A stretch of DNA of 64,000 nucleotides. Origin: Acidobacteriota bacterium (lineage in GTDB: Bacteria > Acidobacteriota > Thermoanaerobaculia > Gp7-AA8). Made by a program: the position numbers and the translations under genes. The stretch is taken from positions 1-64,000 of the forward strand of contig JACPDH010000013.1 in NCBI GenBank assembly GCA_016184115.1, written 5' to 3'. Positions 11,837 to 63,960 of the stretch are shown piece after piece (position 1 is the stretch's first letter; each line of letters begins with the position of its first letter). The notes beneath the pieces are model-generated. The model did not search any database and was not told where the DNA came from. It saw nothing but the letters and a program-made list of their open reading frames with translations.

Positions 11837-11953
11837 AACACATCGAATGCAGAATGCAGAATGCAGAACGGAAGAATGAAGAAGGGCACGGCGCAATCGA
11901 GCTGCTCATCGCTTTCTTCATTCTTCCGTTCTGCATTCTGCATTCGATGTGTT
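11837..11953. repeat. Heptad inverted repeat between the SDR and rlmD genes
   Basis: The left arm (11837-11885) and right arm (11911-11953) are almost perfect reverse complements over about 42 nt around a 25-nt spacer. The arm begins AACACATC, continues with GAATGCA units and ends GAACGGAAGAATGAAGAA. The left arm has three GAATGCA heptads and the right arm two, so the arms differ by exactly one 7-nt unit. It starts 5 nt after the SDR stop and would fold into a very stable hairpin in RNA. Confidence 0.9.
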
Positions 11954-11999
11954 CCTCTTCTCGTGCCGCCCGAACGTCTGCTGAAGTACACTCCGGCGC

Positions 12000-13184
12000 A
12001 TGCGCACGCCTCCTGTTTCGGTCGGCGAGATTCTCGAGCTGAGCCCCGATGGACTCGTCGCCGGAGGCGAGGCGATCTGCCGCGTCGACGGTTTCCCGCT
12101 CTTCGTTCCGAGAATCTATCGAGGTGACGTCGCGCAGATCGAAGTCGTCGAGGTCAAGAGGGGCTTTGGGCGGGGACAGGTCATCGAGTTGGTGAGCGCC
12201 TCGCCGCAGCGGAGACGCGACCCCTGCCCCGTGGCTGGAGAGTGCGGTGGGTGCGATTGGGCTGAGCTGCGGCTCGACGCACAACTCGATGCGAAGAAAG
12301 AAATCGTGCTCGACTCGCTCCGGAGGATAGGCAAATTCGATCCTGGCGCCCTCCCTTCGATCCGACTGCACGCGTCGCCGCTCAACTATCGACTCCGGAG
12401 CCGGCTTCACGCCGATCCGTCCGATCCGGGGAGTGTCGGGTTCTACGCCCGGAAGTCGAACGACGTCGTCCCGATCAGCGAGCGCTGCGAGGTCATCGGT
12501 CCCGCATTGCTCGGTAATCTCGATGCGCTGCGAAATGTGGCGCGAGGCGGCGCTGTCATCGATGCGTTCGAGTCGAGCCATGCCTTCTCGTACGCTGCGC
12601 GGCCCGATGACGACACGAAAGGTGTGCCGGTCGCGCTCGAGGTGGGCAGCCGGACCTACACGCTCTCGACGACGACGTTCTTTCAAGTGAACCGGCATCT
12701 GTTGGGGCGGCTCATCGCGCTCGTGTCGGCGCACGCGGCGGAGAGTGCGGGGAGGGAGCTCGCACTCGATCTTTACGGTGGCGTCGGCTTCTTCGCGCTT
12801 CCTCTCGCAGAGCGATTCGCGCGCGTCGTCACCGTGGAAGCGCTCGGCGAGGCGCACATCTACGCCGGTCTCAATTGCCGCGCTACGCCTAACGTCGCGG
12901 TCGTTGGAGCGCCGGTCGAGGAGTTTCTCGAAGCATTCGAGGAGCAAGCCGACTTCGCACTCGCCGACCCGCCCCGCGCAGGTCTGACGCCGCGCGCTCT
13001 CGACCTCCTCGCGCGGGCGGCCCCACCGAAGATTTGTTATCTGTCGTGCGATCCGGTAACCTTTTCACGTGACGCGGCGGAACTGGGGCGCCGTGGTTAC
13101 GCCCTCCGTTCGCTCGACCTCCTCGATCTCTTTCCGAACACCCACCACGTAGAGACGCTCTCCTTGCTCGCGCTTGAGCAATGA
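12000..13184 (+). CDS. rlmD: 23S rRNA (uracil-C5)-methyltransferase, RlmD/TrmA family
   Basis: 394 aa. An N-terminal TRAM-like domain (about 5-65) is followed by the iron-sulfur cysteines Cys76, Cys82 and Cys85 (CPVAGECGGC), with a probable fourth in SERCEV near residue 162. The methyltransferase domain has the SAM motif LDLYGGVGFFALP, the DPPRAG motif and the catalytic Cys in YLSCDP. The cluster pattern is that of RlmD rather than TrmA, but target base and RNA are inferred from family only. It heads a plus-strand cluster with comEC, a zinc-ribbon protein and miaA. TACACT lies 7 nt before the ATG and no ribosome binding site is visible. Confidence 0.92.
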   Translation: MRTPPVSVGEILELSPDGLVAGGEAICRVDGFPLFVPRIYRGDVAQIEVVEVKRGFGRGQVIELVSASPQRRRDPCPVAGECGGCDWAELRLDAQLDAKKEIVLDSLRRIGKFDPGALPSIRLHASPLNYRLRSRLHADPSDPGSVGFYARKSNDVVPISERCEVIGPALLGNLDALRNVARGGAVIDAFESSHAFSYAARPDDDTKGVPVALEVGSRTYTLSTTTFFQVNRHLLGRLIALVSAHAAESAGRELALDLYGGVGFFALPLAERFARVVTVEALGEAHIYAGLNCRATPNVAVVGAPVEEFLEAFEEQADFALADPPRAGLTPRALDLLARAAPPKICYLSCDPVTFSRDAAELGRRGYALRSLDLLDLFPNTHHVETLSLLALEQ

Positions 13185-15468
13185 ACCACGTTCGACCCCA
13201 GCAGCATCCGCATTCGCTTCGTTCGTAGCCGGCCTCGTTCTGGCCCGCATCGTCACCGATCCTGCAACGTCCGCGGCGGCGGCTGCACTCGTCGCATGTC
13301 TCGTACTCGCAATCCGGAGGCCGGGTTGCGTGCGTGCGGCAGTGCTGGCGGCGCTCCTCGCGCTTGGACTCTCGATCGGTGCGCGCGAACGCGCCGCAAC
13401 CGCGCGAGAGCTCGCGCTGCTCGGCAGCGCGGGAGAGGATCGCTTCGTCACCGTCACGTTGCCGGTCGAGGACGATTGGCAGACGCTGGAAGACGGCAGG
13501 AAGCGGCTCTCCGCGCAGTCGTTCCGTGTGGCGCTTCGAGACGGCCGTTCGCTCGATATCGGCCGCCGGATCTTCGTGACGACTGCCGACGCGCCTCCCG
13601 ACGTCATCGACGCTGCGACGTTGGACGCGGAGGGCTTCCTGCGGCGGACCACGCGCGGGAGTTACCGGCTTACGGTGAAGTCGTCGCGGCTCATGGCGCC
13701 GGGTGGTGAGGCGCGGCGCTGGTCGCCCGCGTACTGGAACCGCCGGCTAGTCCGAGCGCTTCGCAACGCGGCAGGCACATGGCGCGTGGCGTCGCTCGGT
13801 TGCTCACTCGTCGAATCGCTCGTCCTCGGCCGGCCGGCACGCCTGCCCGACGAGATGCTCGAGTCATACCAGCGGGGAGGGACGTACCACCTCCTCGTCT
13901 TCTCCGGCCTTCAGATTGCGATGCTCGCGGGCGCGCTTCGCTGGCTCGCACGGATGGCGGGGCTGCGACGGTCGGCCGACGCGCTCCTCCTCGCGGTGTC
14001 GTTCTTCGCACCTGCATTCGTAGGCTCCGATCCGTCGGTGTCGCGGTCGGCGTGGATGCTCGGGCTCCTCATCTTCACGCGAGTATGGGAGCGGCCCGTG
14101 AGTGCGACGAATGCGTTGTTTGCGTCCGCGCTCGTGAGGCTCGTGTCGTGCCCATGGGAGCTCGATGATCCTGGCTTCGCGCTGACCTATGCGGCGACGG
14201 CGGGCATCGTCGTCGTGGGACGGGCACTCGCAGGAATCGCCGGCCGGCGGAGCGGTGGACTGTTCGCCGGCGCTGGGGCGGAGCTCGCGACCTTCCCGCT
14301 CACGCTACTCTGGTTCAACCGCATCGTTCCCGGCGGATCGATCGCGACGCTCGTCTCGGGTCCAGTCCTCCTCGCGATGCTCGTTGCCGGCGTTCTCGCC
14401 TGCGTCCTCGCGCCAATCTCGCCTAACGGCGCGTTCGTCGTGCTCGATGCGATCGGGTCGGCGAATGAAGTGGTCGTCGCAATCAATCGATTCGTGGCGG
14501 ATGGCGCGGGGCTCTCGATCGCGATGCCGGCACCGCCTGCGTGGCTGGTTGCGGCGGCTCTCGCCTGCGCGGTTGTCGCGATCGCCCGTGGACGGATTGC
14601 ACTCGTTCCGTTTGCGCTGGCGCTTCCGATCGCCGCGTCGATCGCTCTCGCGGTGGTGCGAGGCGACGCCGGGGAGGGCGAGCTCCGACTGCTCGACGTC
14701 GGGCAGGGCGACGCGATTTTGCTGCGCAGCGGGCGAGGGTCGATTCTCGTTGACGCGGGCGGATCGTCGCGCGACCCATCGATCGGCCGGCGCCTGCTCG
14801 TTCCGCGCCTTGCGGACGCGGGCATCCGCCGGATCGACGCGATCGTCCTCTCGCATCCTCATCCCGATCACTGCGGTGCGATTCCCGCGGCGATGCGCGA
14901 CTTCGACGTCGGGCGCGTCGTCGTTGGACGCCGTCATGTGAGTGCCCCCTGCGTGCAGCGTGTGCTCGACGAGGCGTTGCGGCTCGGCATCCCGGTCGCG
15001 GACGCGGAGGCCGAAGGAACGCTCGTCACGGGAACGATTGAGCTCCGGCCGGTCGACGTCGGGACGAGGTTCCGTCGCGCTCCCGAGAACAACGGCTCGC
15101 TCGTCTACGCCGCGCGCATCGCGGGCCGCTCGCTCCTGCTCACCGGCGATGTCGAGAAGGAGGCAGAGACCGTCCTCCGCTACGATCACGCGGCGGAGCT
15201 GCGCGCCGAGATCCTCAAAGTTCCGCACCACGGCGGCGCGACGTCATCGACACCACGCTTTCTCGATCTCGTCGCCCCGAGGATTGCAATCGTCTCCTGT
15301 GGGCGAGGGAACCCGTTCGGGCATCCGTCGGACCAGGTCGTCAACGAGCTGAAGTCGCGTGGAGTCATCCTTTTGAGGACCGATATTCATGGCACCGTCG
15401 TGCTTACCTTCCAGGAAAACCGGGTGTTCGTGAAGCGCGAGTTTGACACTCCGAGTGCGACTCGCTGA
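13174..15468 (+). CDS. comEC: ComEC/Rec2 family DNA-uptake channel protein
   Basis: 764 aa. N-terminal hydrophobic segments are followed by a DUF4131-like soluble part (about 75-170) and the Competence domain with many membrane helices (about 190-480, including GGTYHLLVFSGLQIAML). The C-terminal metallo-beta-lactamase domain begins LDVGQGDAILL and has the metal motif SHPHPDHCG. ComEC carries single-stranded DNA across the inner membrane; the hydrolase domain is thought to degrade the other strand. The only sensible start is TTG 13174, overlapping the end of rlmD by 11 nt. A PilT-like ATPase gene is also in the window (56806), so the cell may be naturally competent. Confidence 0.94.
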   Translation: MSNEPRSTPAASAFASFVAGLVLARIVTDPATSAAAAALVACLVLAIRRPGCVRAAVLAALLALGLSIGARERAATARELALLGSAGEDRFVTVTLPVEDDWQTLEDGRKRLSAQSFRVALRDGRSLDIGRRIFVTTADAPPDVIDAATLDAEGFLRRTTRGSYRLTVKSSRLMAPGGEARRWSPAYWNRRLVRALRNAAGTWRVASLGCSLVESLVLGRPARLPDEMLESYQRGGTYHLLVFSGLQIAMLAGALRWLARMAGLRRSADALLLAVSFFAPAFVGSDPSVSRSAWMLGLLIFTRVWERPVSATNALFASALVRLVSCPWELDDPGFALTYAATAGIVVVGRALAGIAGRRSGGLFAGAGAELATFPLTLLWFNRIVPGGSIATLVSGPVLLAMLVAGVLACVLAPISPNGAFVVLDAIGSANEVVVAINRFVADGAGLSIAMPAPPAWLVAAALACAVVAIARGRIALVPFALALPIAASIALAVVRGDAGEGELRLLDVGQGDAILLRSGRGSILVDAGGSSRDPSIGRRLLVPRLADAGIRRIDAIVLSHPHPDHCGAIPAAMRDFDVGRVVVGRRHVSAPCVQRVLDEALRLGIPVADAEAEGTLVTGTIELRPVDVGTRFRRAPENNGSLVYAARIAGRSLLLTGDVEKEAETVLRYDHAAELRAEILKVPHHGGATSSTPRFLDLVAPRIAIVSCGRGNPFGHPSDQVVNELKSRGVILLRTDIHGTVVLTFQENRVFVKREFDTPSATR

Positions 15469-15483
15469 AAATCATTTGACACC

Positions 15484-15801
15484 ATGTCCGTCACGCTGTT
15501 CCGCACGGGGATCTGGATCATCATTGCGACACTCGTCGCCTACGTAGTCCGCGAGACGTACGTCGGGGAAACGCTCGAGTTCCTGAACGCGGAGCTTCTC
15601 TGGAACTCGATACTCCTCGGGGCCGCCGTGATCGGGCTCGGCGTCGTCGCGTGGATCGGCGGGAAGCTCATGCCGCAGAGGCGCTCGAAATGCCGAATCT
15701 GTGGCCATGTGATCCCGCGGGGAAGTGTCTACTGCCGGCCACACCTGCAAGAGAAGCTCGAAAGAGCGCGCCACGCCGATCTGGCAACGAGGCGGCGCTG
15801 A
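15484..15801 (+). CDS. Small membrane protein with C-terminal zinc ribbon
   Basis: 105 aa. Two membrane segments (about residues 8-25 and 40-62) are followed by a basic stretch (KLMPQRRSK) and a zinc-ribbon knuckle CRICGHVIP with YCRPH, then a charged helix. The gene starts 15 nt after comEC and its TGA overlaps the likely start of miaA, so it belongs to the same operon. I do not recognise a named family. Anchored zinc ribbons of this size usually act as small accessory proteins. Confidence 0.8.
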   Translation: MSVTLFRTGIWIIIATLVAYVVRETYVGETLEFLNAELLWNSILLGAAVIGLGVVAWIGGKLMPQRRSKCRICGHVIPRGSVYCRPHLQEKLERARHADLATRRR

Positions 15802-16712: not shown

Positions 16713-16754
16713 AAACGGAGCCACCGGGTCTGGCCCGGATCGTCGCGAAATCGT

Positions 16755-16783
16755 TTGTGGCAATTTATAAGCTATTCTATTTA
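16755..16783 (+). promoter_or_regulatory. Putative sigma-70 type promoter of the TPR lipoprotein gene
   Basis: TTGTGG (16755-16760), a 17-nt spacer and TATTTA (16778-16783) lie in one of the most AT-rich segments of the window (about 16745-16860). The leader to the GTG at 16863 would be about 75 nt. Confidence 0.55.
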
Positions 16784-16862
16784 GGTGCTAGTTTTACGAG
16801 ATATGTATTGGTTTAATTTCGTATCAATTTTCAATTTCGAATTCCGCCCCCATACTTTCTTC

Positions 16863-18815: not shown

Positions 18816-18956
18816 GGCGGTACGAGGCGAGCGTCCGCGTACATCGATACGCGCCCCAAGCCACTATACTATCCGCCATCCGCTTCACGGTCGGGACTGG
18901 GTTGGTCGAATCGCTCCGGTCTCTCCTGACGCGGCGTGGGGAGGAAGCGCCGACCG

Positions 18957-20609: not shown

Positions 20610-20635
20610 GCGCAGCGCCGTTCGAAGGAGCCTCC

Positions 20636-21475
20636 GTGTCCTGGGATCGACTCGCTGAATCGGAAGGGCTCGACCGGATGAGCGCGGCCGACGTTGCCCG
20701 CCTCGTCGCGATGCAGCAGTCCGATGTCGCGTCGCTCGTGGCCGCCATCGCGGAACGGATCGGTCGCGCGGCCGAGGCGATCGAGGATCGGCTGAGCAAT
20801 GGCGGGAGAATCGCATACGCGGGATGGGGGCGGTGCGGCCGCACGGCCGCATCGGATGCCGCGGGGCTTTCGAGGCGCTTCGGCGTCGATCGCGCGAAGG
20901 TGGTCGTTCTGGCGAAGGAGCCGGGAGAGGCGTGCGCGCTTCCCGACGACGAAGACGCGATCGCACGCGTAAATTCACAGTTGCGCTCCGAGGATGCGCT
21001 GATCTGCGTCAGCGCGTCGGGCGACCAGCCGTTTGCGATCGGCGCCGCGCGCGCCGCGAATTTTCTCGGGGTCCTGACGACTGGCATCACGACCACGCCT
21101 AACTCGTTGCTCACCCGCGACTGTGATTTTCCAATCGTCGTCGCGACCGGCGCGGAGGTCGTCATGGGAGATCTCGCCTTCAGGAGCGCGACGGCGATCA
21201 AGATCGCCCTCGACGCGCTGACGACCGCAGCGATGGTCCGTCACGGCTGCGTCTGGTCGAACCTGCCGGTCGAACGCAATCTCGGCAGCGACGCGTGGCG
21301 CATCGTCGAGGCGGCCTGTGACTGCTCCCCAATCGAAGCGAGGTCGGCCGTCGCGGCAACGGGAAGCGCGAAGGCGGCGATCGTGATGCTGCGGCTCGGG
21401 ATCACGGCCGACGAGGCGCGGCAACGGCTCGGCGATGCCGGAGAAGAGCTGCGGCGAGCGCTGGACGAGAGTTGA
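20636..21475 (+). CDS. MurQ-like SIS-domain protein lacking one catalytic glutamate
   Basis: 279 aa from GTG. The SIS sugar-phosphate isomerase fold and the C-terminal helical domain (EAACDCSPIEAR, AIVMLRLGITADEARQRL) align with N-acetylmuramic acid 6-phosphate etherase. In E. coli MurQ the first catalytic Glu lies in DASE. Here the same place reads DAAG (74-77), and the substrate loop GTSGRLG is replaced by GWGRCGRT. The second acidic position seems kept (PDDEDAIA). About 35 N-terminal residues of MurQ are also missing. It may be a different sugar-phosphate lyase or a regulator. The following nagA supports a role in amino-sugar recycling. Confidence 0.75.
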   Translation: MSWDRLAESEGLDRMSAADVARLVAMQQSDVASLVAAIAERIGRAAEAIEDRLSNGGRIAYAGWGRCGRTAASDAAGLSRRFGVDRAKVVVLAKEPGEACALPDDEDAIARVNSQLRSEDALICVSASGDQPFAIGAARAANFLGVLTTGITTTPNSLLTRDCDFPIVVATGAEVVMGDLAFRSATAIKIALDALTTAAMVRHGCVWSNLPVERNLGSDAWRIVEAACDCSPIEARSAVAATGSAKAAIVMLRLGITADEARQRLGDAGEELRRALDES

Positions 21476-21595
21476 AACTCGAGAATCGAGAATTGAAGGA
21501 GGCGGGCCGGCGAAGGCGGTGGATGTTTCCGACCGGTACCTTGTGACGGTTCCCTCATTTTTCAATTTTCAATTTTCAAATCTCGATTCCGAACC
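21471..21595. repeat. Heptad inverted repeat after the murQ-like gene
   Basis: The left part at the stop codon reads GAGAATC, GAGAATT, GAAGGAG in 7-nt steps. The right part (21561-21595), read on the minus strand, is GGAATCGAGATTTG followed by AAAATTGA units, the same kind of heptad in inverted orientation. The arms are imperfect. The spacer of about 60 nt has no feature of note. The element fills the gap up to nagA and overlaps the murQ-like stop codon region. Confidence 0.65.
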
Positions 21596-21607
21596 TACGC
21601 TGCTTCC

Positions 21608-23964: not shown

Positions 23965-23970
23965 GGAAGG

Positions 23971-24420
23971 GAGTCCTGGGTCCTGAGTCCTCAGTCCTGA
24001 GTGCTGAGTGCTGAGTCCTGAGTGCTGAGTCCTGAGTGCTGAGTTGGAGGGCGAAGTGCTGAGTTCTGGGTGCTAAGTGATGTGCGTTCGGTGCGTGAAG
24101 CCGATGAATTGAAATTTTCTTGGGATCGGTGGTGCACGTCGGGACTTCGCGTTCACTGGAAGTGTCTTAATCGCGCGCACTATCGCTCACCACCGAGTGC
24201 ACGGTGATCAGGACTCAGGACTTACGACTCAGGACTTAGGACTCAGGCCTTAGGACTTAGGCCTCAAGACTCAGGACTCAGGACTGAGGACTCAGAACTG
24301 AGGACTCAGAACTTAAGACTCAGGACTGAGGACTGAGGACTCAGGACTGCGGACTGAGGACTGAGGACTTAGGACTGAGGACTCAGGACTTAGGACTGAG
24401 GACTTAGGACTCAGAACCCC
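23971..24420. repeat. Heptad array pair: (NAGTCCT)n, spacer, (AGGACTN)30
   Basis: The left arm (23971 to about 24080) has ten units in register such as GAGTCCT, CAGTCCT and GAGTGCT, then degenerate ones. The spacer is about 130 nt. The right arm from 24210 to 24419 is about 30 consecutive AGGACTN units without a single insertion or deletion; the seventh base is C, T or G and never A. The arms are mutually complementary. The right arm runs into the 3' end of the DUF4149 gene, whose last codons and stop are made from it. The spacer has a small inverted repeat around GGTGGTGCAC / GTGCACGGTG. Confidence 0.93.
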
Positions 24421-24853
24421 GTCGGGGCCACGCCGCTCCCATCGCCGTTGCGATTTGCGCGAGCATGAGCAGCGTTGACGCGCCGTGGAGCTTGCCGAAT
24501 CGTCTCCTGACCGCGCTTGCCGCCGGGAGGTCGCTCACGGGAACGATCGATGCTTCGCGGATGGAGCGGATCTCGAGGTCGGCGAATGCCTGGGCGGATC
24601 CAATGAGGAGAGCGAGCGCGAGAAACACGACGAGGCGCGTGTCGGTAAGGCCGCGACGCCACTCGAGGATCAAGAGGATCGTCGGCACCGCGAGCGCGAT
24701 GTAGTGCCAGCGCGCGAGCATCGCGCCGACGACCGCGGCGGCGATCGTGCGCGACGGAGCTGCTTCGAATGCGGCTGGTGCCGCGATCAGTGCGATCGTC
24801 AGCCCTGAACCGATCCAGATCGCGTAGAGCATCAGTGTGAGCCAAGCCTTCAT
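24404..24853 (-). CDS. DUF4149-type small integral membrane protein
   Basis: 149 aa with four hydrophobic segments: about residues 5-27, 35-58, 72-90 and 122-142. The first ([20 protein letters not shown]) and the GKLHG motif before the last helix fit the DUF4149 family. Function is unknown. The ATG overlaps the mtnA stop (ATGA), so the two are co-translated. The C-terminal residues SES and the TAA stop come from the AGGACTN heptad array, meaning the repeat has replaced or eroded the original 3' end. Confidence 0.8.
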
Positions 24854-28308: not shown

Positions 28309-28319
28309 TGCGAACGATG

Positions 28320-28357
28320 CGAATCGAGAAACGAGAATCACGATTCTCAATCAAATC
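28320..28357. repeat. Short heptad inverted repeat between pgk and the CYTH gene
   Basis: CGAATCGAGAAAC, then GAGAATC (28333-28339) and its inverse GATTCTC (28342-28348) separated by only two bases, then TCAATCAAATCC. The units are 7 nt and of the same GARAATC type as the elements at 21471 and 31654. It fills the space between the two genes and provides no Shine-Dalgarno sequence for the CYTH gene. Confidence 0.5.
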
Positions 28358-28360
28358 CGA

Positions 28361-30801: not shown

Positions 30802-31653
30802 TCATCCCCGATCCACGTCTGCGTCTTCCCACGGCATCTTCCACACTTCCTCGTCAGTCTCGATCTTCGGGAGCGTCGGGGCCTTGCCCTGTTCCTTCAA
30901 GCGATTGAACTCCCAGAGCTTCGAGTACTTCCAGAATGTGTAGAAAGTATGGAGCCCGACGGTGATCAGCCCAGGGGCTCCGTCGAGGAAGCCGAGGTTG
31001 ACGACGTAGTCGCGGAAGAAACGAGCGAACGAATGGCCGAGGATGCCGAGCGCGGACACCTCGCGCCCCTCGATGTGCAGCTGCGTCCCGCCCCAGAGAC
31101 CGTAGCGCGTCATCTTCTCGACCTGGTGATCGAATGATCGAATGTAGAGATGCTTGAACTTTCCGCGCAGTCGGCCGACGGGACCGTTGACCGCGAGGTC
31201 GGTATGAACGCGGCGATTGGGATAGCGGGCATTCTGACGGTGCATGAGGCGGCGAACACCATCGCGTTGCAGCCCGCTGTAGCGAACGGGACTCCCGAGG
31301 ACGTAGTTCGCGCGCCCGATCCAGTAGGCCCAGTACTTCGGCCCTTCCTCGAGGACGCGGAGGATCTCGTCTCGTAGCTCCGGGGTGACCTGCTCGTCAG
31401 CGTCGACGACCAGCACCCAGTCGTTGGCGACCGAGTCGAGGCCGAAGTTCTTTTGCGCGGCCGACCCGAGGTACTCGCGCTGGATGAACTTCACATGAGG
31501 GAAGCGATCACAGACGAGCTCGACCGTGCCGTCGTTGGAGTGCGAATCGACGAGGACGATCTCGTCGGCCCACTCGAGCGAGCGGAGACAAGGCTCGATG
31601 TGCTCGGCTTCGTTGAAAGTCGTGACGAGTGCGCTGATCTTTGGACGAGGCAT
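30802..31653 (-). CDS. Glycosyltransferase family 2 (WaaE/KdtX-like)
   Basis: 283 aa. The GT-A core reads SALVTTFNEAEHIEPCLRSL, IVLVDSHSNDGT and the metal-binding DADEQVTPEL. The later part (WIGRANYVLGSPVRYSGL, RRVHTDLAVNGPVGRL, FDHQVEKMTRYGLWG) matches the LPS-core glucosyltransferases of the WaaE/KdtX type, with C-terminal membrane-associated hydrophobic residues. It should add a hexose to a lipid-linked glycan at the inner face of the membrane. ATG 31653 is chosen at the start of the GT core; the frame continues 19 codons into the repeat element upstream. Confidence 0.9.
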   Translation of the reverse strand: MPRPKISALVTTFNEAEHIEPCLRSLEWADEIVLVDSHSNDGTVELVCDRFPHVKFIQREYLGSAAQKNFGLDSVANDWVLVVDADEQVTPELRDEILRVLEEGPKYWAYWIGRANYVLGSPVRYSGLQRDGVRRLMHRQNARYPNRRVHTDLAVNGPVGRLRGKFKHLYIRSFDHQVEKMTRYGLWGGTQLHIEGREVSALGILGHSFARFFRDYVVNLGFLDGAPGLITVGLHTFYTFWKYSKLWEFNRLKEQGKAPTLPKIETDEEVWKMPWEDADVDRG

Positions 31654-31777
31654 TGGAATCGAATTGGCAATTGAGGATCGAGAATCGAGAGGGGCGTCGC
31701 GGAGAGCCACGCCCGGTTCCGGAAGGCACTAACGCCTCGCGACAGCTCTCAACTCTCGATTCTCAATTCAGCATTCC
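31654..31777. repeat. Heptad inverted repeat between the MBL and GT2 genes
   Basis: On the plus strand, 31656-31692 reads in 7-nt steps GAATCGA, ATTGGCA, ATTGAGG, ATCGAGA, ATCGAGA. The inverse arm at 31745-31777, read on the minus strand, is GAATGCT, GAATTGA, GAATCGA, GAGTTGA, GAGC. The arms flank about 50 nt. The right arm starts at the stop of the MBL gene and the left arm ends at the GT2 start codon, so the element spans the whole gap. Confidence 0.75.
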
Positions 31778-32608: not shown

Positions 32609-32757
32609 GTGGATTTCGGATTTCGGATTTGAGAGTCGAAGCCTGCGCCGGAACTGCTGAAAGGCGAGCTCTGCGACCCCTTTCTGCGTCGTTGCGCCCA
32701 ACTGCGATTCGCCACAAAATTCGAAGTTCGAAATTCGAAATTCGAAATCCGAAATGA
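32609..32757. repeat. Heptad inverted repeat abutting the lhr start codon
   Basis: The left arm (32611-32640) has GGATTTC, GGATTTC, GGATTTG. The right arm (32716-32757) has AAAATTC, GAAGTTC, GAAATTC, GAAATTC, GAAATCC, GAAATGA in exact 7-nt register. The last unit contains the ATG start of lhr. The arms are inverse (GAAATCC units) around about 75 nt. The array occupies the place where a ribosome binding site should be, so lhr has no Shine-Dalgarno sequence. Confidence 0.78.
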
Positions 32758-42144: not shown

Positions 42145-42243
42145 GAAGTTAGAACGTAGAACGATGAATGTTGAATCCAGAAAAGGGTCCCGGGCGGGCG
42201 TTTCAGGGTTCAACATTCGCCGTTCATCGTTCTAACTTCAGCC
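42145..42243. repeat. GAANNNN heptad inverted repeat between convergent genes
   Basis: From 42145 six 7-nt units all start with GAA: GAAGTTA, GAACGTA, GAACGAT, GAATGTT, GAATCCA, GAAAAGG. The inverse arm (42208-42243), read on the minus strand, is GAAGTTA, GAACGAT, GAACGGC, GAATGTT, GAACC. The spacer is about 20 nt. The element sits between the convergent methyltransferase and radical SAM genes and could also terminate transcription. The same GAAGTTA-GAACNTN-GAACGAT run is found at 63515 and 63940. Confidence 0.88.
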
Positions 42244-45457: not shown

Positions 45458-45769
45458 GAGTCCTGAGTCCTCAGTCCTGAGTGCTGAGTCCTCAGTCCTG
45501 AGTCCTCAGTGCTGAGTGCTGATTGCTGGGCACTGGTCCTTCGCTCTGAGACCGTGTCGTCTCTTCTCATTTCGAGTCAAGTGTCTTTTCCCTTAGCTCC
45601 CTGAACCAAGGACTCAGGACCAAGGACTCGGGACTCAGGACTAACGACTAAGGACTGAGGACTCAGGACTAAGGACTAAGGACTAAGGACTCAGGACTGA
45701 GGACTCAGGACTAAGGACTAAGGACTCAGGACTGAGGACTCAGGACTGAGGACTCAGGACTCAGGACTG
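45458..45769. repeat. Heptad array pair: (NAGTCCT)11, spacer, (AGGACTN)23
   Basis: The left arm (45458 to about 45541) holds GAGTCCT, CAGTCCT and GAGTGCT units. The spacer is about 68 nt. The right arm from 45609 to 45769 has 23 AGGACTN units in perfect register, here with A, C and G as seventh base, then TCTTTTTC. With the flanks it occupies the 410-nt gap 45368-45777. On the minus strand the long arm follows the FmdB stop by 8 nt, and the short arm ends just upstream of the GT2 gene. Confidence 0.92.
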
Positions 45770-49758: not shown

Positions 49759-49768
49759 TGTGGAGAGT

Positions 49769-51580: not shown

Positions 51581-51585
51581 GGCTT

Positions 51586-52410: not shown

Positions 52411-52436
52411 CGGCCGGTCTCCTGCTGCGCAGACTT

Positions 52437-52562
52437 GAGGATTCGGAATCGGGAACTGAGCGACGGCTTCCACGTGGTCCCTCGCCCGACCCCTATCCCA
52501 TCATCGCGTCATTCCCTTTGCCGTTCGAACTGCACGATCGGCAATCGCTCAATTCTCAATTC
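52437..52562. repeat. Heptad inverted repeat at the dapA 3' end
   Basis: The right arm (52540 to 52562 and a little beyond), read in dapA direction, gives GAATTGA, GAATTGA, GCGATTG. The left arm at 52437-52465 has GAGGATT, CGGAATC, GGGAACT, GAGCGAC. The spacer is about 75 nt. The array begins within the last codons of dapA: the C-terminal LQN and the TGA are made of the repeat. It lies between dapA and dapD in the same transcription unit. Confidence 0.68.
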
Positions 52563-53455
52563 TGAAGTTTCAATTCCGCGAGGATGTTTCTCATCCTGGC
52601 GTAGTTTTCTTCCGACATCGCGGCGAGCGGAAGGCGAACGGTGTCGCTCCCGATGATGCCCAGCATTTTCAGCACAGCCTTCACCGGGATCGGATTCGAC
52701 TCGATGAAGTTTCCCGTCATCAGCGGGAGGATCCGCTCGTGGATCGGTCGCGCCGTCGCGAAATCGTCGCGCATCGCCGCGTCGACCATCTCACTCATGA
52801 GCTTCGGAATCTCGTTCGATGCGACGGAGATGACGCCATCGGCTCCAGCCGCGATGAGCGGGAGCGTCCACGCGTCGTCGCCGCTGAGCACGAGAAAGTC
52901 CTTCAGCCGGTCGCGGAGGATCTGAAGGATCTGTTCGAGGTTGGCCGATGCTTCCTTGACTCCGACGACGTTCGGGATCGCGCGAGCGATCCGCAGAGTC
53001 GTGGCCGGCAGCATGTTGAGGCCGGTTCTTCCCGGAACGTTGTAAAGGATCATCGGCATGTCTTCGATCGCGTCGGCCTGCATTTCGAAGTGTCGCAGCA
53101 AGCCGTCAGGGTTCGGCTTGTTGTAGAACGGAGTGATCGAGAGGATGCCGTCCGCGCCGAGGTCGCGGGCCGCGAGTGCGAGGTCGACGGCCTTTTCGGT
53201 CGAGTTGCTCCCTGCGCCGGCGAGCACGGGAACCTTTCCGTTCGCGCGACGAATCACCAGCTCGACGACGCGAAGATGTTCGCTCTGTGTGAGTGCCGGG
53301 TTCTCGCCGGTCGTGCCGCACGGAACGAGAAAGTCGACTCCTCCTTCGATCTGCAGCGTCACGAGCTTTTCGAGACCGTACTCGTCGAGCGAGCCATCGG
53401 CCTTGAAGGGAGTCACGAGGGCAGTGCCGAGTCCGCGGAACTTGTCAGCAATCAT
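52556..53455 (-). CDS. dapA: 4-hydroxy-tetrahydrodipicolinate synthase
   Basis: 299 aa. Class I aldolase fold with the GTTGENPAL loop, the Tyr in ILYNVPGRTGLNM, and the Schiff-base Lys in VVGVKEASANL. It condenses pyruvate with aspartate semialdehyde. GSNST in the second motif (LAGAGSNSTEKA) is as expected. The last residues (KLQN) come from a heptad repeat that overlaps the stop. Located between dapB (upstream, with a heptad array in the gap) and dapD. Confidence 0.97.
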   Translation of the reverse strand: MIADKFRGLGTALVTPFKADGSLDEYGLEKLVTLQIEGGVDFLVPCGTTGENPALTQSEHLRVVELVIRRANGKVPVLAGAGSNSTEKAVDLALAARDLGADGILSITPFYNKPNPDGLLRHFEMQADAIEDMPMILYNVPGRTGLNMLPATTLRIARAIPNVVGVKEASANLEQILQILRDRLKDFLVLSGDDAWTLPLIAAGADGVISVASNEIPKLMSEMVDAAMRDDFATARPIHERILPLMTGNFIESNPIPVKAVLKMLGIIGSDTVRLPLAAMSEENYARMRNILAELKLQN

Positions 53456-53461
53456 GGTTCT

Positions 53462-53694
53462 TAGTCCTGAGTCCTGAGTCCTTAGTCCTGAGTCCTGAGT
53501 CCCTAGTCTTGAGTCCTGAGTCCTGAGTCCTTAGTCCTTAGTCCTCAGTTCTGACTCTTGAGTCCTCAGTACCGAATATCCAATATCCTCTCAAAGATTG
53601 TGAGCGACGGGCTCTGAATTTCAAGGACACGCGTCACCGATTGCCTCACTTGGTACTCAGGACTCAGCACTCAGGACTGAGGACTCAGCACTCC
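53462..53694. repeat. Heptad array pair between dapB and dapA
   Basis: From 53462 to 53573 sixteen 7-nt units run in register: TAGTCCT, GAGTCCT, CAGTTCT and similar. The spacer is about 80 nt and includes CGAATATCCAATATCC. The inverse arm (53653-53694) has six units such as GGACTCA and GCACTCA. The right arm reaches the dapB stop at 53694, the left arm ends 6 nt before the dapA start on the coding strand. The element therefore separates two genes of one pathway. Confidence 0.9.
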
Positions 53695-55735: not shown

Positions 55736-55840
55736 GAGCGCTCGCGATCGTATCCGCGCGTCGGGCGCGGCGCAACGGGCCCGCTCGCGGCGAAGGCAGC
55801 AGGCAGGCGCGTGAATGCGAGCAATGCGTCCGCGTCTAGG

Positions 55841-56680: not shown

Positions 56681-56805
56681 ACAGTGGCACGGGTGGCTCT
56701 CGATTCCCGCCGAAACCCCGGCCGCGGCGATCCGTCCAAGGGATGCCGCCGGAAACCGAAGCGGTGCGACTGAGGACGCCTGCAGAGGAGGCGAGGAGAC
56801 GACTG

Positions 56806-57999: not shown

Positions 58000-58037
58000 G
58001 TAGTCGGAGGCGGGGCGAGCGCGAGCGTTGCAGAGGG

Positions 58038-58667: not shown

Positions 58668-60403
58668 CGGTCCTCTCCCGAGGTCGTTGCCTCGAAAGGT
58701 AGCCGGAGACTGACGATCGTGCCCCGTCCCTCGACTCCTTCGATCTCGAGCTCGCCGCCAATGCCACGCGCCCGCTCGCGCATGAAGGCCAGGCCGAGGG
58801 ACTGACGTTCGCGAGACTGGTTGGGGCGGAAACCGCGTCCGTCATCGCGTACCTCCACGAGCATGTCGTCGTCGCGAAGGCGTATACGGATCTCCACGCG
58901 TGTGGCGTCGGAATGCCTGGCCACGTTGGTGAGCGCTTCCTGCACGATGCGATAGACGACGACCTCGGCATCGCGATCGATCGGCATCGTGCGATCGGGT
59001 GTCGAGAGCTCGCACTCAATCCCCGTCCTGTCTTCGAATGCGCGGACGTCGGACTGGATCGCCGCGACGAGGCCGAAATCATCGAGCATCGCGGGGCGTA
59101 ACTCGGAGGCGATGCGACGGACCGACTCGATTGTCTCGTCGAGCGCGCGGCGGATGCGCGTCACCATCGTCGATTGGGCAGCCGTGGCCTCGCCGAGTGA
59201 AGCGGACAAGCCCCCGATGTCCATCTTGAGGGCGGTCAGGAGTTGGCCTAACTGATCGTGAATCTCGTGTGCGATCTTCCTGCGCTCCTGCTCCTGGACG
59301 TCGAGGACCTTGCGGGACAGCGCGGCGAGTTCCCGCTGTGACTCGATGAGGGCGCCCTCAGCTCGTGCTCTTCGCTCGGCCATCCGGTTGAATGCGTCGG
59401 CGACGACTGCAATTTCCCGCGGTCCCGTCGCGGAAACGTGCCGTCCGAACCCCTCGTCTCCCATCCGTTCAACTGCAGCGGCGAGCTGCTCCAGTGGTTT
59501 CTCGACGGTTGAGGAAATCTTGATCGAGAGGATTCCGACGAGAATCAGTACGACGAGCGCGGCACCGAGACCGCGGAACAGAAGCGAACGTACGGAGGCC
59601 ATCGCCACGGCGTTTGGAACCCCGACGAAGAGCATCCAGTTCGTTCCCTCAATCCGTGTGAATCCGTACTGGCGAAGCTCACCGTCGATGCCCCGCGCCT
59701 GCCCACGTCCTTCGTTGAGTGTGCGCGCGAGTTTGCCTAGCTCCGAGCCTCCGACGTTGGTTCCGATCCAACGGTGATCGTTGCCGGATCGGGCGACGAC
59801 GTTTCCCTGGGCGTCGGCGATCGTCACGACCGTTCCGCGCGGGTACGAAGAGACGTCCATGTCGAAATATGCGACGAGTGCAAGATAGCCGGACCCCGGA
59901 GCTGCGTTGCCGGTTCGAAGAAACGAGACGAGCAGCCACGATTCGGGGGTGGCGACGAAAACTGGGTCGTCGAGCAGACGGACGTCTCCTGACGTTCGGA
60001 GCCGCGCGATCGCATGCTCGGCCGCGTCGGAGGCAGCGACGTCGTCCGGTTGCGGACCCGCGGAACAGAGCAGTCGATCCTGAGAGTCGTAGAGGAGCAG
60101 ATTCGGGTACTGAGGAAAGAAGTCGGCCACCGCGAACAGCGAGTCGCATGTTCCAGCGACTGGGTGCCGGATCAGCGGCCGTGACGCCATGCGATCGAGG
60201 AGCGCGCGCGAGTCGCGGACCTCTCCCGACACCGTCGATGCGTAAGCTTTCGCGATGCGAAGCGCGCGCGCGCGCGCCCCTTCGTGTTCGCGGTCGAGCT
60301 CCTCGGCGAACCCCCACGCGAGAACGCCGAGCAACGGGACGCCGACAGCGAGCACGAGAACGAACAGCCGCCCCCTAATCGTTCCGAACGCGAGGTGTCG
60401 CAC
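58664..60403 (-). CDS. Sensor histidine kinase of the NarX/DegS (HisKA_3) type with Cache-like sensor
   Basis: 579 aa from GTG 60403. Membrane segments at about residues 12-32 and 275-300 frame an extracytoplasmic domain with the strand pattern of a double Cache sensor (NLLLYDSQDRLLCSAG, VVTIADAQGNVVARSG). HAMP (PLEQLAAAVERMGDEG), a coiled coil and the HisKA_3 box RRKIAHEIHDQLGQLLTALK with the phospho-His follow; the HATPase has RIVQEALTNVARHSDA and DDGRGF. It pairs with the NarL-type regulator that follows. TATAAT lies 8 nt before the GTG and there is no Shine-Dalgarno sequence, so the message may be leaderless. Confidence 0.95.
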   Translation of the reverse strand: MRHLAFGTIRGRLFVLVLAVGVPLLGVLAWGFAEELDREHEGARARALRIAKAYASTVSGEVRDSRALLDRMASRPLIRHPVAGTCDSLFAVADFFPQYPNLLLYDSQDRLLCSAGPQPDDVAASDAAEHAIARLRTSGDVRLLDDPVFVATPESWLLVSFLRTGNAAPGSGYLALVAYFDMDVSSYPRGTVVTIADAQGNVVARSGNDHRWIGTNVGGSELGKLARTLNEGRGQARGIDGELRQYGFTRIEGTNWMLFVGVPNAVAMASVRSLLFRGLGAALVVLILVGILSIKISSTVEKPLEQLAAAVERMGDEGFGRHVSATGPREIAVVADAFNRMAERRARAEGALIESQRELAALSRKVLDVQEQERRKIAHEIHDQLGQLLTALKMDIGGLSASLGEATAAQSTMVTRIRRALDETIESVRRIASELRPAMLDDFGLVAAIQSDVRAFEDRTGIECELSTPDRTMPIDRDAEVVVYRIVQEALTNVARHSDATRVEIRIRLRDDDMLVEVRDDGRGFRPNQSRERQSLGLAFMRERARGIGGELEIEGVEGRGTIVSLRLPFEATTSGEDR

Positions 60404-60488
60404 TGATGGCGATTATACGGACGGCGGCGCGCGTGCGCGGACGGTCGACTAAGCGCTGTCGCGGCAAAGGCGCCGGATTGCGGGACGC

Positions 60489-60503
60489 TAGGTGAATTAC
60501 CTA
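60489..60503. promoter_or_regulatory. Perfect 15-nt palindrome between divergent signalling genes
   Basis: TAGGT-GAATT-ACCTA is a perfect inverted repeat in the 182-nt gap between the divergent histidine kinase and CheY-like genes. Size and symmetry suit an operator for a dimeric regulator, for example the NarL-type protein encoded in this unit; that link is only inferred. Confidence 0.4.
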
Positions 60504-60585
60504 TGCGTCAACAAGCGACACTTCGGATCCGCCGTTCGATGCCGGTGCGATGGCCGCCGCATGCGCCGTTCACTAGATTGCCTGC

Positions 60586-61005
60586 GTGGGTAACCAGGCG
60601 TTATCGGAACGCGTGCTCCTGATCGACGACGACGAACTGATCTCCAGGGCGCTCTACGACGAGCTCCTCGTTCAGGGATGTAAGGTCGATCTTGCGCTGT
60701 CCGCCGAAGAAGGGGAGCGCGCGTTAGGGCAACGGGAGTATGCGATCGTGCTCGTCGACGCGTATCTGACCGGACAGCTGAACGAGCGGGCGTTCGGACT
60801 TCTCGATCGGGTGCTCGAGCTTCGACGCGGTGCATATGTCCTGCTCGTCACCGCGTATCGGGCGGGTGCGCTTCAGGAGCGGCTCCGTGCAGTCCCATCT
60901 CTCACGATCGTCGACAAGCCGTTGCCGGTCTGGATGTTGATCGAGCTCGTCACCGGATTCCTGTCGATCCGCCAAACGCGGACAACGGCAGGATCGAATG
61001 GATGA
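60586..61005 (+). CDS. CheY-like receiver-domain protein
   Basis: 139 aa from GTG. Receiver features: LLIDDDELIS, Asp in VLVDAYLTG, Thr in LLVTAYRAG and Lys in IVDKPLPV, spaced as in phosphorylatable receivers. No output domain; the C-terminus is a short Ser/Thr-rich tail. It probably receives phosphate from a kinase such as the divergent one next to it and acts through protein contact. TAGATT lies 6 nt before the start and no ribosome binding site is visible. The pal gene follows 25 nt downstream. Confidence 0.88.
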   Translation: MGNQALSERVLLIDDDELISRALYDELLVQGCKVDLALSAEEGERALGQREYAIVLVDAYLTGQLNERAFGLLDRVLELRRGAYVLLVTAYRAGALQERLRAVPSLTIVDKPLPVWMLIELVTGFLSIRQTRTTAGSNG

Positions 61006-61030
61006 GAACAATCGGAAGGAGATCTCTCAG

Positions 61031-61588
61031 ATGAAATTCAGGATGGTCGTCGTTGTACTCGTGATCGCCGTGTTCGGTGCGGCCGGGTGTCGCTCCAGAG
61101 TCAAGCCAGCGACGGCGCCGATGCCCCCGGAGGCAGCGCCCGCCCAGGAAGTGCCGGCTCCGGTCGGCGACTTCGCCGGGGTGCCGGAGCCCGATGAGTC
61201 GATCGACATGTCGGACATCGACGAACTGAACCGCAGGGCGCAGGAGGAAGGCTGGGTGCGAGATGCCTTCTTCGAGTACGACCAGTTCGCACTTTCGGCG
61301 AACGCGCGCGAAGCGCTCTCCGTATCCGCGGGCTGGCTGCGGAAGAACCCAGGAGTAGGCCTCACGGTGGAGGGACACTGCGACGAACGCGGCACGTCGC
61401 AGTACAACCTCGCGTTGGGCGAACGGCGCGCCTGGAGCGCGCGGCAGTACCTCGAGTCGCTCGGCATCGATTCGTCGCGGCTGCGAACGATGAGCTTCGG
61501 AGAGGAGCGTCCGTTCGCCGAGGGATTGAACGAGGCGGCGTGGGCCAAGAACCGGCGCGCTCATCTCGTGCTCTACAAGATCGATTGA
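61031..61588 (+). CDS. pal: Pal-type OmpA-family peptidoglycan-associated lipoprotein
   Basis: 185 aa from ATG 61031, which is preceded by GGAAGGAG at about 9 nt. Signal MKFRMVVVVLVIAVFGAAGC with lipobox GAAGC, a Pro/Ala-rich linker (about 20-60), then the OmpA_C domain: FFEYDQFALS, LTVEGHCDERGTSQYNLALGERRA and SFGEERP, the diaminopimelate-binding pattern of Pal. It tethers the outer membrane to peptidoglycan. The usual tolQRAB genes are not next to it, so it is either an isolated copy or a paralogue. Confidence 0.9.
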   Translation: MKFRMVVVVLVIAVFGAAGCRSRVKPATAPMPPEAAPAQEVPAPVGDFAGVPEPDESIDMSDIDELNRRAQEEGWVRDAFFEYDQFALSANAREALSVSAGWLRKNPGVGLTVEGHCDERGTSQYNLALGERRAWSARQYLESLGIDSSRLRTMSFGEERPFAEGLNEAAWAKNRRAHLVLYKID

Positions 61589-61652
61589 CGCGGGAGAGCC
61601 GGCCGGTCGGAGGGAAGGACCCACGTACGGGACTGAGTGACCGACCGGAAGG

Positions 61653-61691
61653 GGCGGGCACGGGCTGGGCCGCCCGTGCCCGCCTCCTTTT
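61653..61691 (+). terminator. Intrinsic terminator of pal
   Basis: GGCGGGCACGGGC pairs with GCCCGTGCCCGCC (13 bp, loop TGGGCC) and is followed by TCCTTTTCG. It lies about 65 nt past the pal stop. The 269-nt gap to the acyl-CoA dehydrogenase gene otherwise contains only a GTG-poor spacer and the ribosome binding site GGAGGTGATCC of that gene. Confidence 0.87.
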
Positions 61692-61857
61692 CGTTCCCTC
61701 GAGTGGAAGACGAGGCTCGTCCGGCGGCCGCGCGCTGCGGAGTCCGAATGTCTGCACCGCTCCGGACGAGGCAATGGGATCGGCCAGCGATCCGCGTCGT
61801 GCATTCGGCGTTATCCTCCTCGGAGCGACATTCGAAGCGCGTGCGCGGAGGTGATCC

Positions 61858-63378
61858 ATGCCGATTCCTGAACCGCCCGACGTCTCCTATTGGGACGCGT
61901 CACCGGCACTCCGTGAGCTCCTCTCGGCAAAACTGAATCGGGCCGATCTCGACTGGGCAGCGCCGCAGCTCGCTGCGATGGGGGATGCCGCGGCGCGGAC
62001 GGTTGCCCCACTCGCCGCGATCGCCGATCGCGAGAGCCCGCGCCTCGTCACGCACGACCCGCGCGGGAACCGCGTAGACCGCATCGACTACCACCCCTCC
62101 TACCGCGAGATGCAGCGACTGGCCTACGGCTCGGGGATGGTCGGGATGAAGTACGACGAGACGACGCTCGCCGCGCATCCCGCCGCCGTGCAGCTCACGG
62201 GATTTGCGTTAGGCTATCTCTTCGCGATGGCCGAGATGGGGCTTTATTGTCCCGTCTGCATGACCGACGGAGTCGCGCGAATTCTCACGCTCCACGGAGG
62301 GCGCGAGCGCTTCGGCGCGACGATCGACCGGCTCGCGTCGACGAGGCTCGAGAGCCTCTGGACGGGCGCGATGTTCCTCACCGAGAAGACCGGTGGATCC
62401 GACGTCGGCGCGAACGAGACGATCGCGCGGCGGGACGCTTCGGGCGGCTGGAGCCTCACCGGCACGAAGTGGTTCTGCTCGAACGTCGATGCCGGTGCGA
62501 TTCTCGCGACGGCGCGCCCCGAAGGCGGAGCCGCCGGGACGAAAGGGCTGAGAACCTGGCTGATTCTCCGTGAGCAGGCGCAGGGGCTGACGATCGACCG
62601 GATCAAGGAGAAGTTAGGCGTGCGGTCGATGCCGACGGGGGAGGTCATGCTCGATTCTGTTCCGGCGGAGGAGGTCGGCGACTTTCATTCGATCGCGGAG
62701 ATGCTGAACCTCTCACGACTCTACAACTCGGTCGCCGCGATTGCGGTGATGGGACGCGCGATCCTCGAGGCGCGGCATTACATCGAGCGTCGCCGCGCGT
62801 TCGGAAAGCCGGTGATCGAACATGCACTCGCCCGGGAGACGCTGCTCGATGCCGAGGCCGAGCAGCTCGGCGCGCTCTACCTGACGTTCGAGACGGTCGA
62901 GCTGCTGGGCAAGGCCGATCGCGGCGACGAGCGCGCCGCACGCGAGAGGCGGTTCCTCACTCCCGTCGTGAAGGCGGTCACCGGCAAGCTCGCAGTGCCC
63001 GTCGCCTCCGAGTGCATGGAGCTGATCGGCGGCAACGCCTACATCGAGGAGTCGCCTCTGCCGCGGCTCCTGCGCGACGCGCAGGTGCTTCCGATCTGGG
63101 AAGGGACGACGAACATTCTCGCCCTCGACGCACTTCGCGCCGCGAAGAAGGACGCGGGGCATCTCGTCACGCTCGAGCGGATCGCAAAGGTGCTTCCGGG
63201 CGAAGCGATGGCGCTGGAAGACGCGTTTTCGACGATCGACGAGCGGCAGGCGCGCGGCTGGATGGACAACTTCGCCCGCGCGCTCGAGATCGCGCTGCTG
63301 CGCGAAGCGGGAGACGACGTGGCCGCCGAACGCCTTCAGCGCCGCCCGTTAGGCCTCGTGCCGGGCGCGTTCGTGTGA
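61858..63378 (+). CDS. AidB-like acyl-CoA dehydrogenase
   Basis: 506 aa. Acyl-CoA dehydrogenase layout: FLTEKTGGSDVGANETIA (FAD/substrate loop), WSLTGTKWFCSNVDA, LGVRSMPTGEVMLD, and the helical C-terminal domain with RRRAFGKPVIEHALARE and NAYIEESPLPRLLRDAQVLPIWEGTTNI split by the expected spacing. The N-terminal about 150 residues (YGSGMVGMKYDETTLAAHP) and the YHPSYREMQRLAY stretch are typical of the AidB branch, whose true substrate is unsettled. GGAGGTGATCC just before the ATG is an almost full match to the anti-Shine-Dalgarno sequence, so translation should be strong. The stop is the first part of a heptad array. Confidence 0.92.
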   Translation: MPIPEPPDVSYWDASPALRELLSAKLNRADLDWAAPQLAAMGDAAARTVAPLAAIADRESPRLVTHDPRGNRVDRIDYHPSYREMQRLAYGSGMVGMKYDETTLAAHPAAVQLTGFALGYLFAMAEMGLYCPVCMTDGVARILTLHGGRERFGATIDRLASTRLESLWTGAMFLTEKTGGSDVGANETIARRDASGGWSLTGTKWFCSNVDAGAILATARPEGGAAGTKGLRTWLILREQAQGLTIDRIKEKLGVRSMPTGEVMLDSVPAEEVGDFHSIAEMLNLSRLYNSVAAIAVMGRAILEARHYIERRRAFGKPVIEHALARETLLDAEAEQLGALYLTFETVELLGKADRGDERAARERRFLTPVVKAVTGKLAVPVASECMELIGGNAYIEESPLPRLLRDAQVLPIWEGTTNILALDALRAAKKDAGHLVTLERIAKVLPGEAMALEDAFSTIDERQARGWMDNFARALEIALLREAGDDVAAERLQRRPLGLVPGAFV

Positions 63379-63432
63379 GTCCTGAGTCCTGAGTCCTGAG
63401 TGCTCAGTCCTCAGTCCTGAGTCCTGAGTGCT
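63377..63432 (+). repeat. Heptad array (NAGTCCT)8 starting at a stop codon
   Basis: Eight 7-nt units in register: GAGTCCT three times, GAGTGCT, CAGTCCT twice, GAGTCCT, GAGTGCT. The first unit begins inside the TGA of the acyl-CoA dehydrogenase gene. Unlike the other three arrays of this class no inverse arm follows nearby; about 80 nt later the GAANNNN element at 63515 begins. Confidence 0.88.
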
Positions 63433-63514
63433 CTCCGCCAGCGTCGCAAAGCGACGCAGGATCGGTGGCCCCCGGCTTCAGCCGCAATGGCGTCAGCTTA
63501 AGGGAACGGCCCTT

Positions 63515-63960
63515 GAAGTTAGAACCTGGAACGATGAATTCAGAACCCAGGACCCACCGGCGGTTGCCGACCACCGATGACCAGAGCGTGCGCGAGCCGT
63601 CGTCCCTCCTCGCTGTGCTCGCCGACCACCGATGACCAAAGAACCGAGAGGCGCACGCCGCAGGCGTGACAGAAGGTAGCCCCGGGTCGCCGCAGGCGAC
63701 CCGGGGTGGATGTTCGAGACACGGTTCGCACCCTGGAGGGGTGCCGGAAGCAAACGGATCTCGCTCCTTCTGTCACCCCTCCGGGGTGGAACCGTGTCGC
63801 ATTGCGAGTTCGGGGGTCGCCTGCGGCGACCCCCGGCTACCATCTGGCATCCCTTCGGGATGCGAGCACGCCAGAACCAAGTCGAGTCCTTCGCAGCAGA
63901 AAAGGCCCCACGATTACGTTTCTGGGTTCTCAATTCACCGTTCTACGTTCTAACTTCGGC
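63515..63960. repeat. Composite element: GAANNNN arms around six small palindromes
   Basis: Left arm from 63515: GAAGTTA, GAACCTG, GAACGAT, GAATTCA, GAACCCA, GGACCCA. Right arm to 63957, read inverted: GAAGTTA, GAACGTA, GAACGGT, GAATTGA, GAACCCA. Between them are a direct repeat GCCGACCACCGATGACCA (two copies, near 63565 and 63620) and the palindromes CACGCC-GCA-GGCGTG, CCCCGGGTCGCC-GCA-GGCGACCCGGGG, GCACCC-TGGA-GGGGTGC, CACCC-CTCCG-GGGTG, GGGGGTCGCC-TGC-GGCGACCCCC and GCATCCC-TTC-GGGATGC. The open frames inside are built from these palindromes and I do not call them genes. This and the previous array explain the gene-free 63379-64000. Confidence 0.82.

Follow-up and report, generated by a model that had tools for sequence, protein, structure and literature searches.

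The window analysed here, a stretch of 64,000 nucleotides (nt) of an Acidobacteriota bacterium (G000:C8:1-64000), belongs to a 4.42 Mb draft genome in 126 contigs and contains intergenic arrays of 7-nt units, most of them arranged as two complementary arms around a spacer. According to the list of open reading frames (ORFs), the best-defined of these elements lie in gaps between ORFs: 53462-53693 occupies the gap between dapB and dapA (both assigned from domain matches), 45458-45769 is flanked by two minus-strand ORFs, and 23971-24416 lies between convergent ORFs and overlaps the end of one of them. Comparison with other genomes indicated that the arrays are probably S23-less copies, either non-autonomous or remnant, of small repeat-arm elements that form a widespread family. 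A complete element would consist of an array of a 6-9 nt unit, a gene for an S23/IVP four-helix-bundle protein, and an inverted array of the same unit.

Period-7 arrays in the window

Self-matching of the window (28-nt windows, at least 22 matches at lag k) detected 10 stretches at lag 7, together 876 bp, and 8, 7, and 6 at lags 14, 21, and 28; within the 64 kb, the remaining lags between 2 and 30 showed no strong self-match. First-order Markov simulations yielded on average at most 0.05 stretches, compared with the 10 observed at lag 7, and the main arrays were also recovered by Tandem Repeats Finder. The sites of 7-nt units located by an earlier reading of the letters (hereafter, the original prediction) were thus correctly placed, and their periodicity is real. 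The same reading had described two inverted arrays as the usual layout. This held for 10 of the 11 two-armed sites, at which pairing of the arms exceeded the 99% quantile of 2000 random pairs at equal spacing, drawn from the window itself and therefore including other elements. It failed at 28320, where 17.7% of random pairs were equally good, and 63377 consists of one arm and hence lay outside the pair test. Because the same-genus genome G001 carries a long GAATTGA hairpin at the place of the 28320 site, this site is perhaps a remnant. Among five sites folded as RNA, z scores were -10.3 at 11837, -9.4 at 45458, -8.9 at 42145, and -3.4 at 31654, and 32609 folded weakly (z -1.6; 16 of 200 shuffles as good). 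No known structured RNA was matched by Rfam in the window or in 15 S23 loci scanned, which implies that no rRNA is present at those loci.

Both unit classes distinguished in the original prediction proved abundant genome-wide. AGKNCTNAGKNCTNAGKNCT gave 428+423 matches (overlapping matches within one array counted separately) vs 37+34 in the reversed control, and GAAGTTAGAACGTAGAACGATGAA gave 101+91 (192) matches with up to three mismatches vs 0+0. The window is rich in strong lag-7 stretches, with 10 in 64 kb compared with 5 in a 295-kb sample from the rest of the genome. In that sample, lag 12 gave 5 stretches and lag 9 gave 3, and the dominance of lag 7 was weaker than in the window. Coordinates of all elements are listed in Table 1.

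Table 1. Repeat elements of the window, with strand and supporting analysis
Feature	Position	Strand	Basis or remark
GAATGCA-type hairpin (GAANNNN class), arms ~45 nt, spacer ~30 nt	11838..11949		0/2000 random pairs as good; z -10.3
GAATTGA/AAATTGA-type arms and spacer	21473..21597		Lag scan, pair test
Left AGTCCT/AGTGCT arm, GAGTCCT units	23971..24045	+	Tandem Repeats Finder and pair test
Right arm of 23971 element, AGGACTN units	24208..24416	-	End overlaps last codons of ORF 24404-24853
Weak GAANNNN site, possibly remnant	28312..28352		Not significant alone
GAATTGA/GAATCGA hairpin	31650..31777		Pair test, folding
GATTTCG / AAATTCG arms	32609..32757		Pair test; right arm adjoins start of Lhr-type helicase ORF
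94-nt member of dispersed GAAGTTA-GAACGTA-GAACGAT hairpin family	42145..42238		Arms as at S23 gene of L254
Left AGTCCT arm	45458..45535	+	Tandem Repeats Finder, pair test, folding
Right AGGACT arm	45608..45769	-	Tandem Repeats Finder, folding
Degenerate GAANNNN arms	52437..52576		Pair test
Left AGTCCT arm in dapB-dapA gap	53462..53577	+	Tandem Repeats Finder
Right arm of 53462 element	53655..53693	-	Tandem Repeats Finder
Single AGTCCT arm	63376..63434	+	Overlaps stop codon of ORF 61858-63378
GAAGTTA-family arms 63515-63553 and 63920-63957, spacer ~370 nt	63515..63957		GAAGTTAGAACGTAGAACGATGAA search, pair test

S23 genes and their flanking arrays

We searched for S23 genes with PF05635 (S23, 23S_rRNA_IVP, four-helix bundle). 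Matches were found in 17 of 20 genomes (this one, with five matches, and 19 relatives) and in 25 of 32 genomes picked for carrying AGTCCT arrays, which were mostly of other phyla but included one from Blastocatellia and two from the window's own family. Some genomes of this family are recorded as Acidobacteria: the eight S23 places of G009 recur in the genome of locus L066 (BP6.bin107), and the six of G014 in that of L120. Structures are known for the S23 homologues 2gsc and 2rld, and all three S23 proteins scanned of the five in this genome received the NCBIfam label 'four helix bundle protein'.

Arms were scored in 24-nt windows with at least 16 matches at a period of 6-9 nt on both flanks within 350 nt, a rule that shuffled flanks passed at rates of 0.0000 and 0.0011. 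Paired arrays lay on both sides of S23 at 40 of 43 loci in the relatives (period 7, 30; period 8, 8; period 6, 2), or at 40 of 48 when five further matches that are weak or from outside the family are counted, and at 33 of 46 loci, representing 45 distinct ones, in the second set (period 7, 29; period 8, 3; period 9, 1). By comparison, Y1_Tnp loci of the window's family and order had paired arrays in 0 of 20 cases within 350 nt, a flank exceeded in length by some of these ORFs, and in 1 of 20 within 1200 nt; lag-7 arrays bordered both sides of none of 5000 random intervals of this genome. The units in S23 flanks vary (GGGATCA, AGACCAC, GTTAACC, AGTGCTG, AGGCAAC, AGTCATT, and others), and the single 7-nt period first proposed is the commonest one without being obligatory, as related elements have periods of 6, 8, and 9.

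Each of the five S23 genes in this genome has arms, which in one case consist of hexads. AGTCCT-class arms occur at L198 and L184, and GAANNNN-class arms at L254 and L255. The arms of L254 are those of the dispersed GAAGTTA family, matching the GAAGTTA hairpins of the window, and its S23 ORF opens with an in-frame reading of the left arm. Predicted ORFs at L254:122-1531 and 1553-1969 begin within arrays (MSPESSVLSPQSS...; MNEEAEVRTMNDELRTQ...), and array-derived N-termini may be common annotation artefacts.

The unit was related to the protein that it flanks. Within 61 heptad elements, the two arms of an element agreed as inverted copies at 5.59 of 7 positions, compared with 3.46 between different elements. 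For 99 pairs of S23 proteins from different genomes with similarity above 0.5, units agreed at 4.91 of 7 positions when compared in the same sense and at 3.83 when compared in the reverse one, and pairs below 0.5 agreed at 3.2-3.4. A Mantel test of unit against S23 similarity gave rho 0.17, a value that at least 1 of 1000 permutations attained; comparing the family set with the other groups (924 pairs) also gave 0.17, attained by 0 of 1000. On a quick maximum-likelihood tree of 94 S23 proteins with many unresolved forks, periods were clustered, requiring 26 changes vs 30.9 after shuffling (equally low in 1 of 200). Both hexad loci formed one branch, and a starred branch held 5 of the 11 octads. 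One deep starred branch united L203 and L205 with the loci that have GAA-type arms, L249-L251 and L254-L257.

The abundance of solo arrays followed the presence of the cognate S23. The AGTNCT class ranged from 0 to 1205 matches per genome within the window's family (both strands summed): 18-1205 in the 10 genomes with an AGT-group S23, and 0-12 in the 8 without one. For five genomes, a prediction made beforehand placed an AGT-group S23 in G014 and G016 and none in G013, G015, and G017. The first outcome agreed for G016, G013, G015, and G017, and G014 apparently had none; on re-check, an S23 fragment of G014, cut by a contig end, was nearest the AGT group and lay beside the usual ABC-transporter gene. 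Applied to 20 loci from the eight genomes scored negative, the same re-check gave no AGT-group S23, with six matches not placed. The complete separation of 10 from 8 genomes has a chance probability of 2.3e-5 if genomes are independent, which they are not fully. In a planned second test, arrays of TTAACSG numbered 777 in G012, where this unit forms the arms of L190, and 28 in G007 (arms of L200), compared with 0-8 matches in the other 17 genomes, of which not every S23 was read.

Distribution and turnover of the arrays

At least 117 stretches of (AGTCCTN)x4 were present in the searched genome contigs across many phyla, with cyanobacteria, Streptomyces, Bacteroidetes, Proteobacteria, Chloroflexi, Planctomycetota, and others among the matches listed. 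The AGTCCT unit is therefore not specific to this lineage, for which the original prediction knew of no described equivalent, and the resemblance that it noted to the heptameric repeats of cyanobacteria is supported. Arm lengths are freely variable in this class. In the GAA class, 53 two-armed readable copies (one, in L034, counted twice) measured 78-104 nt, mostly 91-95 nt, and most copies inspected had the heptad order GAAGTTA GAACGTA GAACGAT GAATNNN GAACCCA GAAA; the near-constant length and common order identify this class as a dispersed element family. Among the solo GAA hairpins (L309-L338, L345-L378), 30 of 53 GAAGTTA hairpins sit inside a further repeat on both sides, e.g. (C)AATGGCCTGAACTTAAGG..., and the elements are thus nested. 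Outward complementarity at a few sites had hinted that the elements insert into palindromes already present, which was not supported: the mean complementarity was 0.70 nt vs 0.63 expected in the 23 copies without an outer repeat, and 0.43 vs 1.44 in the 30 with one.

Individual sites were polymorphic among related genomes. At the dapB-dapA junction, arrays were found in five genomes and none in G002, G003, G006, G011, and G012, with G014 masked. The units there were AGTCCT in this genome, GTTAGTT in G001 (one arm before a contig end), of period 9 in G008 and period 8 in G009, and another heptad in G016 (periods read by eye). In G001, the site corresponding to 23971 has different units, that of 31654 bears a same-class hairpin whose spacer is dissimilar, and no hairpin occurs at the place matching 42145. 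The 21471 site is represented in G001 by other GC-rich palindromes and a remnant resembling the right arm. These palindromes (L402) look similar to those at 63434-63919, in the spacer of the 63515 element, which are GC-rich and of a different kind, like repetitive extragenic palindromic (REP) sequences; no S23 gene was noticed in that spacer. Absence from close relatives, mentioned in the original prediction alongside assembly artefacts as a reason for doubt, was thus seen at single sites, and the relatives carry arrays of their own, which makes an assembly artefact unlikely.

An armed S23 gene lies between genes for an ABC ATPase and a permease (read by eye) in six genomes, always in the same direction as the ABC genes, and the cut-off S23 of G014 comes after the same ATPase in a seventh. 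Either the element has long been retained there or it has been inserted repeatedly, with its unit changing meanwhile. Units at the S23 loci of this gap (L182, L183, L184, L187, L188, L189, and L379) included AGTGCTG, AGTACTG, AGGACTG, and AGTGCCC.

Origin of the arrays

The presence of arms around S23 genes, the dependence of the unit on S23 relatedness, the occurrence of solo arrays with the cognate S23, and the polymorphism of sites were observed directly, and they favour the reading of the window arrays as S23-less copies of an S23 element. Related S23 proteins would then tend to share a unit, and their genomes would carry many intergenic solo arrays of it. In the proposed mechanism, the arms would be transcribed into a long hairpin and cut from the host mRNA by RNase III, as in S23-bearing intervening sequences (IVSs) of rRNA; an S23 oligomer would recognise its own unit and promote the seeding and lengthening of matching intergenic arrays by some copying route. 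We infer S23 action in trans, unit binding, hairpin excision outside rRNA, and the copying chemistry. A reverse transcriptase of the RVT_1 family seems not to be required, since no RVT_1 match was found in G000 or in G012, the genome with the most TTAACSG arrays (4 of the 20 draft genomes had a match to this one reverse-transcriptase family); copying by reverse transcription is accordingly disfavoured.

Several observations weigh against this reading. The Mantel correlation is low and comes mainly from pairs above 0.5 similarity, with no smooth gradient. AGT-group members L199, L218, L227, L261, and L275 have other units, the limits of this group being open forks on the S23 tree, and some solo units, GTTGTTN in L040 for one, lacked a visible armed S23 counterpart in their genome. 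Detectable arms are missing at 3 of 43 and 13 of 46 S23 loci. A target-site duplication was not established, as the empty sites that exist are too diverged to read one. To our knowledge, S23 is no known enzyme. Moreover, the window AGTCCT hairpins were considered as products of internal deletion, and the spacers of three of them were unlike each other and the 10 S23 loci compared, leftover array excepted; they are therefore not plain deletion derivatives of those loci. The unmatched spacers suggest that what is copied may be the arm rather than the inside.

The common copying or slippage process originally invoked survives in so far as one kind of process would account for unlike sequences with one layout. 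The idea that undirected slippage would be enough by itself is not supported, because units track S23 relatedness, array abundance tracks the cognate S23, and the GAA class has near-constant length with ordered heptads. We therefore consider it unlikely that arrays arise by slippage or template switching anywhere and that S23 genes are passengers, inserting into or persisting at array hairpins of a common unit. Such an origin fits the variable arm lengths of the AGTCCT class and the majority of arrays without any S23, and an S23 gene could by chance sit in a unit abundant in its genome; however, it does not lead one to expect that similar S23s of different genomes share a unit in the same sense relative to the gene, that several S23s of one genome bear different units, that octad and hexad arms are clustered on the S23 tree, or that the heptads of the GAA family are ordered at near-constant length.

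Improbable, in our judgement, is a role of S23 as a nucleic-acid-binding protein serving the host, with the arrays as selected regulatory or RNA-stabilising binding sites. The strong hairpins, their intergenic placement, and the cognate match between unit and protein would suit such sites, although these are polymorphic among genera, the unit changes at one site, and dapB and dapA are both kept in related genomes without arrays in the gap. Very improbable is movement of the arrays as REP/bacterial interspersed mosaic elements (BIMEs) or miniature inverted-repeat transposable elements (MITEs) by a cellular transposase, Y1 (HUH) or another, with S23 incidental. Y1_Tnp is present, with 8 matches in G000, and the GAA hairpins resemble a miniature element family, but the near absence of paired arrays at Y1_Tnp loci speaks against it, and it does not predict the match between unit and S23.

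Systems of REP sequences with REP-associated tyrosine transposases (RAYTs) and of MITEs combine many short non-coding copies with few protein-coding copies that have matching ends. The elements described here share this composition; they differ in that the protein is no known transposase and the ends are periodic arrays whose unit varies with the protein. Unlike in REP/RAYT systems, the Y1 transposase genes examined were not bordered by the repeats (0 of 20 loci within 350 nt, 1 of 20 within 1200 nt). No link between the arms and a transposase was found.

The IVSs of 23S rRNA with an S23 ORF, such as that of Coxiella burnetii, form a stem, are excised by RNase III, and have a scattered distribution (PMC4990558). 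An old proposal that the ORF served mobility is cited there, and according to that article S23 proteins, whose structures have been solved, have no known function. The S23-bearing copies (5/5 here, 40/43 in relatives) resemble these IVSs in having an S23 ORF between complementary arms with a long stem; the window copies themselves lack an S23 ORF and are classed as S23-less relatives. Differences are the absence of Rfam matches in the window and the 15 S23 loci, the periodic 6-9 nt arrays that form the arms, and the many S23-less copies. Heptameric repeats are known as the short tandemly repeated repetitive (STRR) sequences of Calothrix (via PMC4692102), as GGGNATC of Xanthomonas and Nostoc (PMC4692102), and as TAACTGA of Beggiatoaceae (PMC4679880); Rehm et al. 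reported inverted pairs in two Xanthomonas genomes, 70 in one and 75 in the other (PMC4692102). The present arrays likewise consist of many intergenic copies of tandem 7-nt units. In contrast to the tie between unit and S23 found here, S23 or four-helix terms do not occur in the available portions of PMC4692102 and PMC4679880, whose authors, in those portions, generally saw no link to mobile elements.

Heptameric repeats and S23 intervening sequences were thus already known separately. Our literature search, with partial coverage that does not establish priority, found no published link between them. No maker is known for the heptameric repeats described in several bacteria, and the match between unit and S23 joins them to S23 proteins and makes both testable, as the array unit of a genome should be predictable from its S23. 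We tentatively propose, as a serious possibility that falls somewhat short of an even chance, a distinct class of mobile element in which S23, without a transposase or reverse transcriptase of its own, would dictate the 6-9 nt unit, build the arms, and seed solo arrays; the heptads of cyanobacteria, Xanthomonas, Beggiatoaceae, and other bacteria would be its footprints and the rRNA IVSs a special case. If S23 does build arrays of the unit that it specifies, the copying mechanism would be unlike that of a transposase or reverse transcriptase.

Some S23 loci had a more elaborate arrangement. At L203, two complete GACAATT-type hairpins (four arms) bracket the S23 gene, and at L211 and L234 (Ignavibacteria), two adjacent S23 genes have AATCACC-type arrays of ~290-470 nt before, between, and after them.
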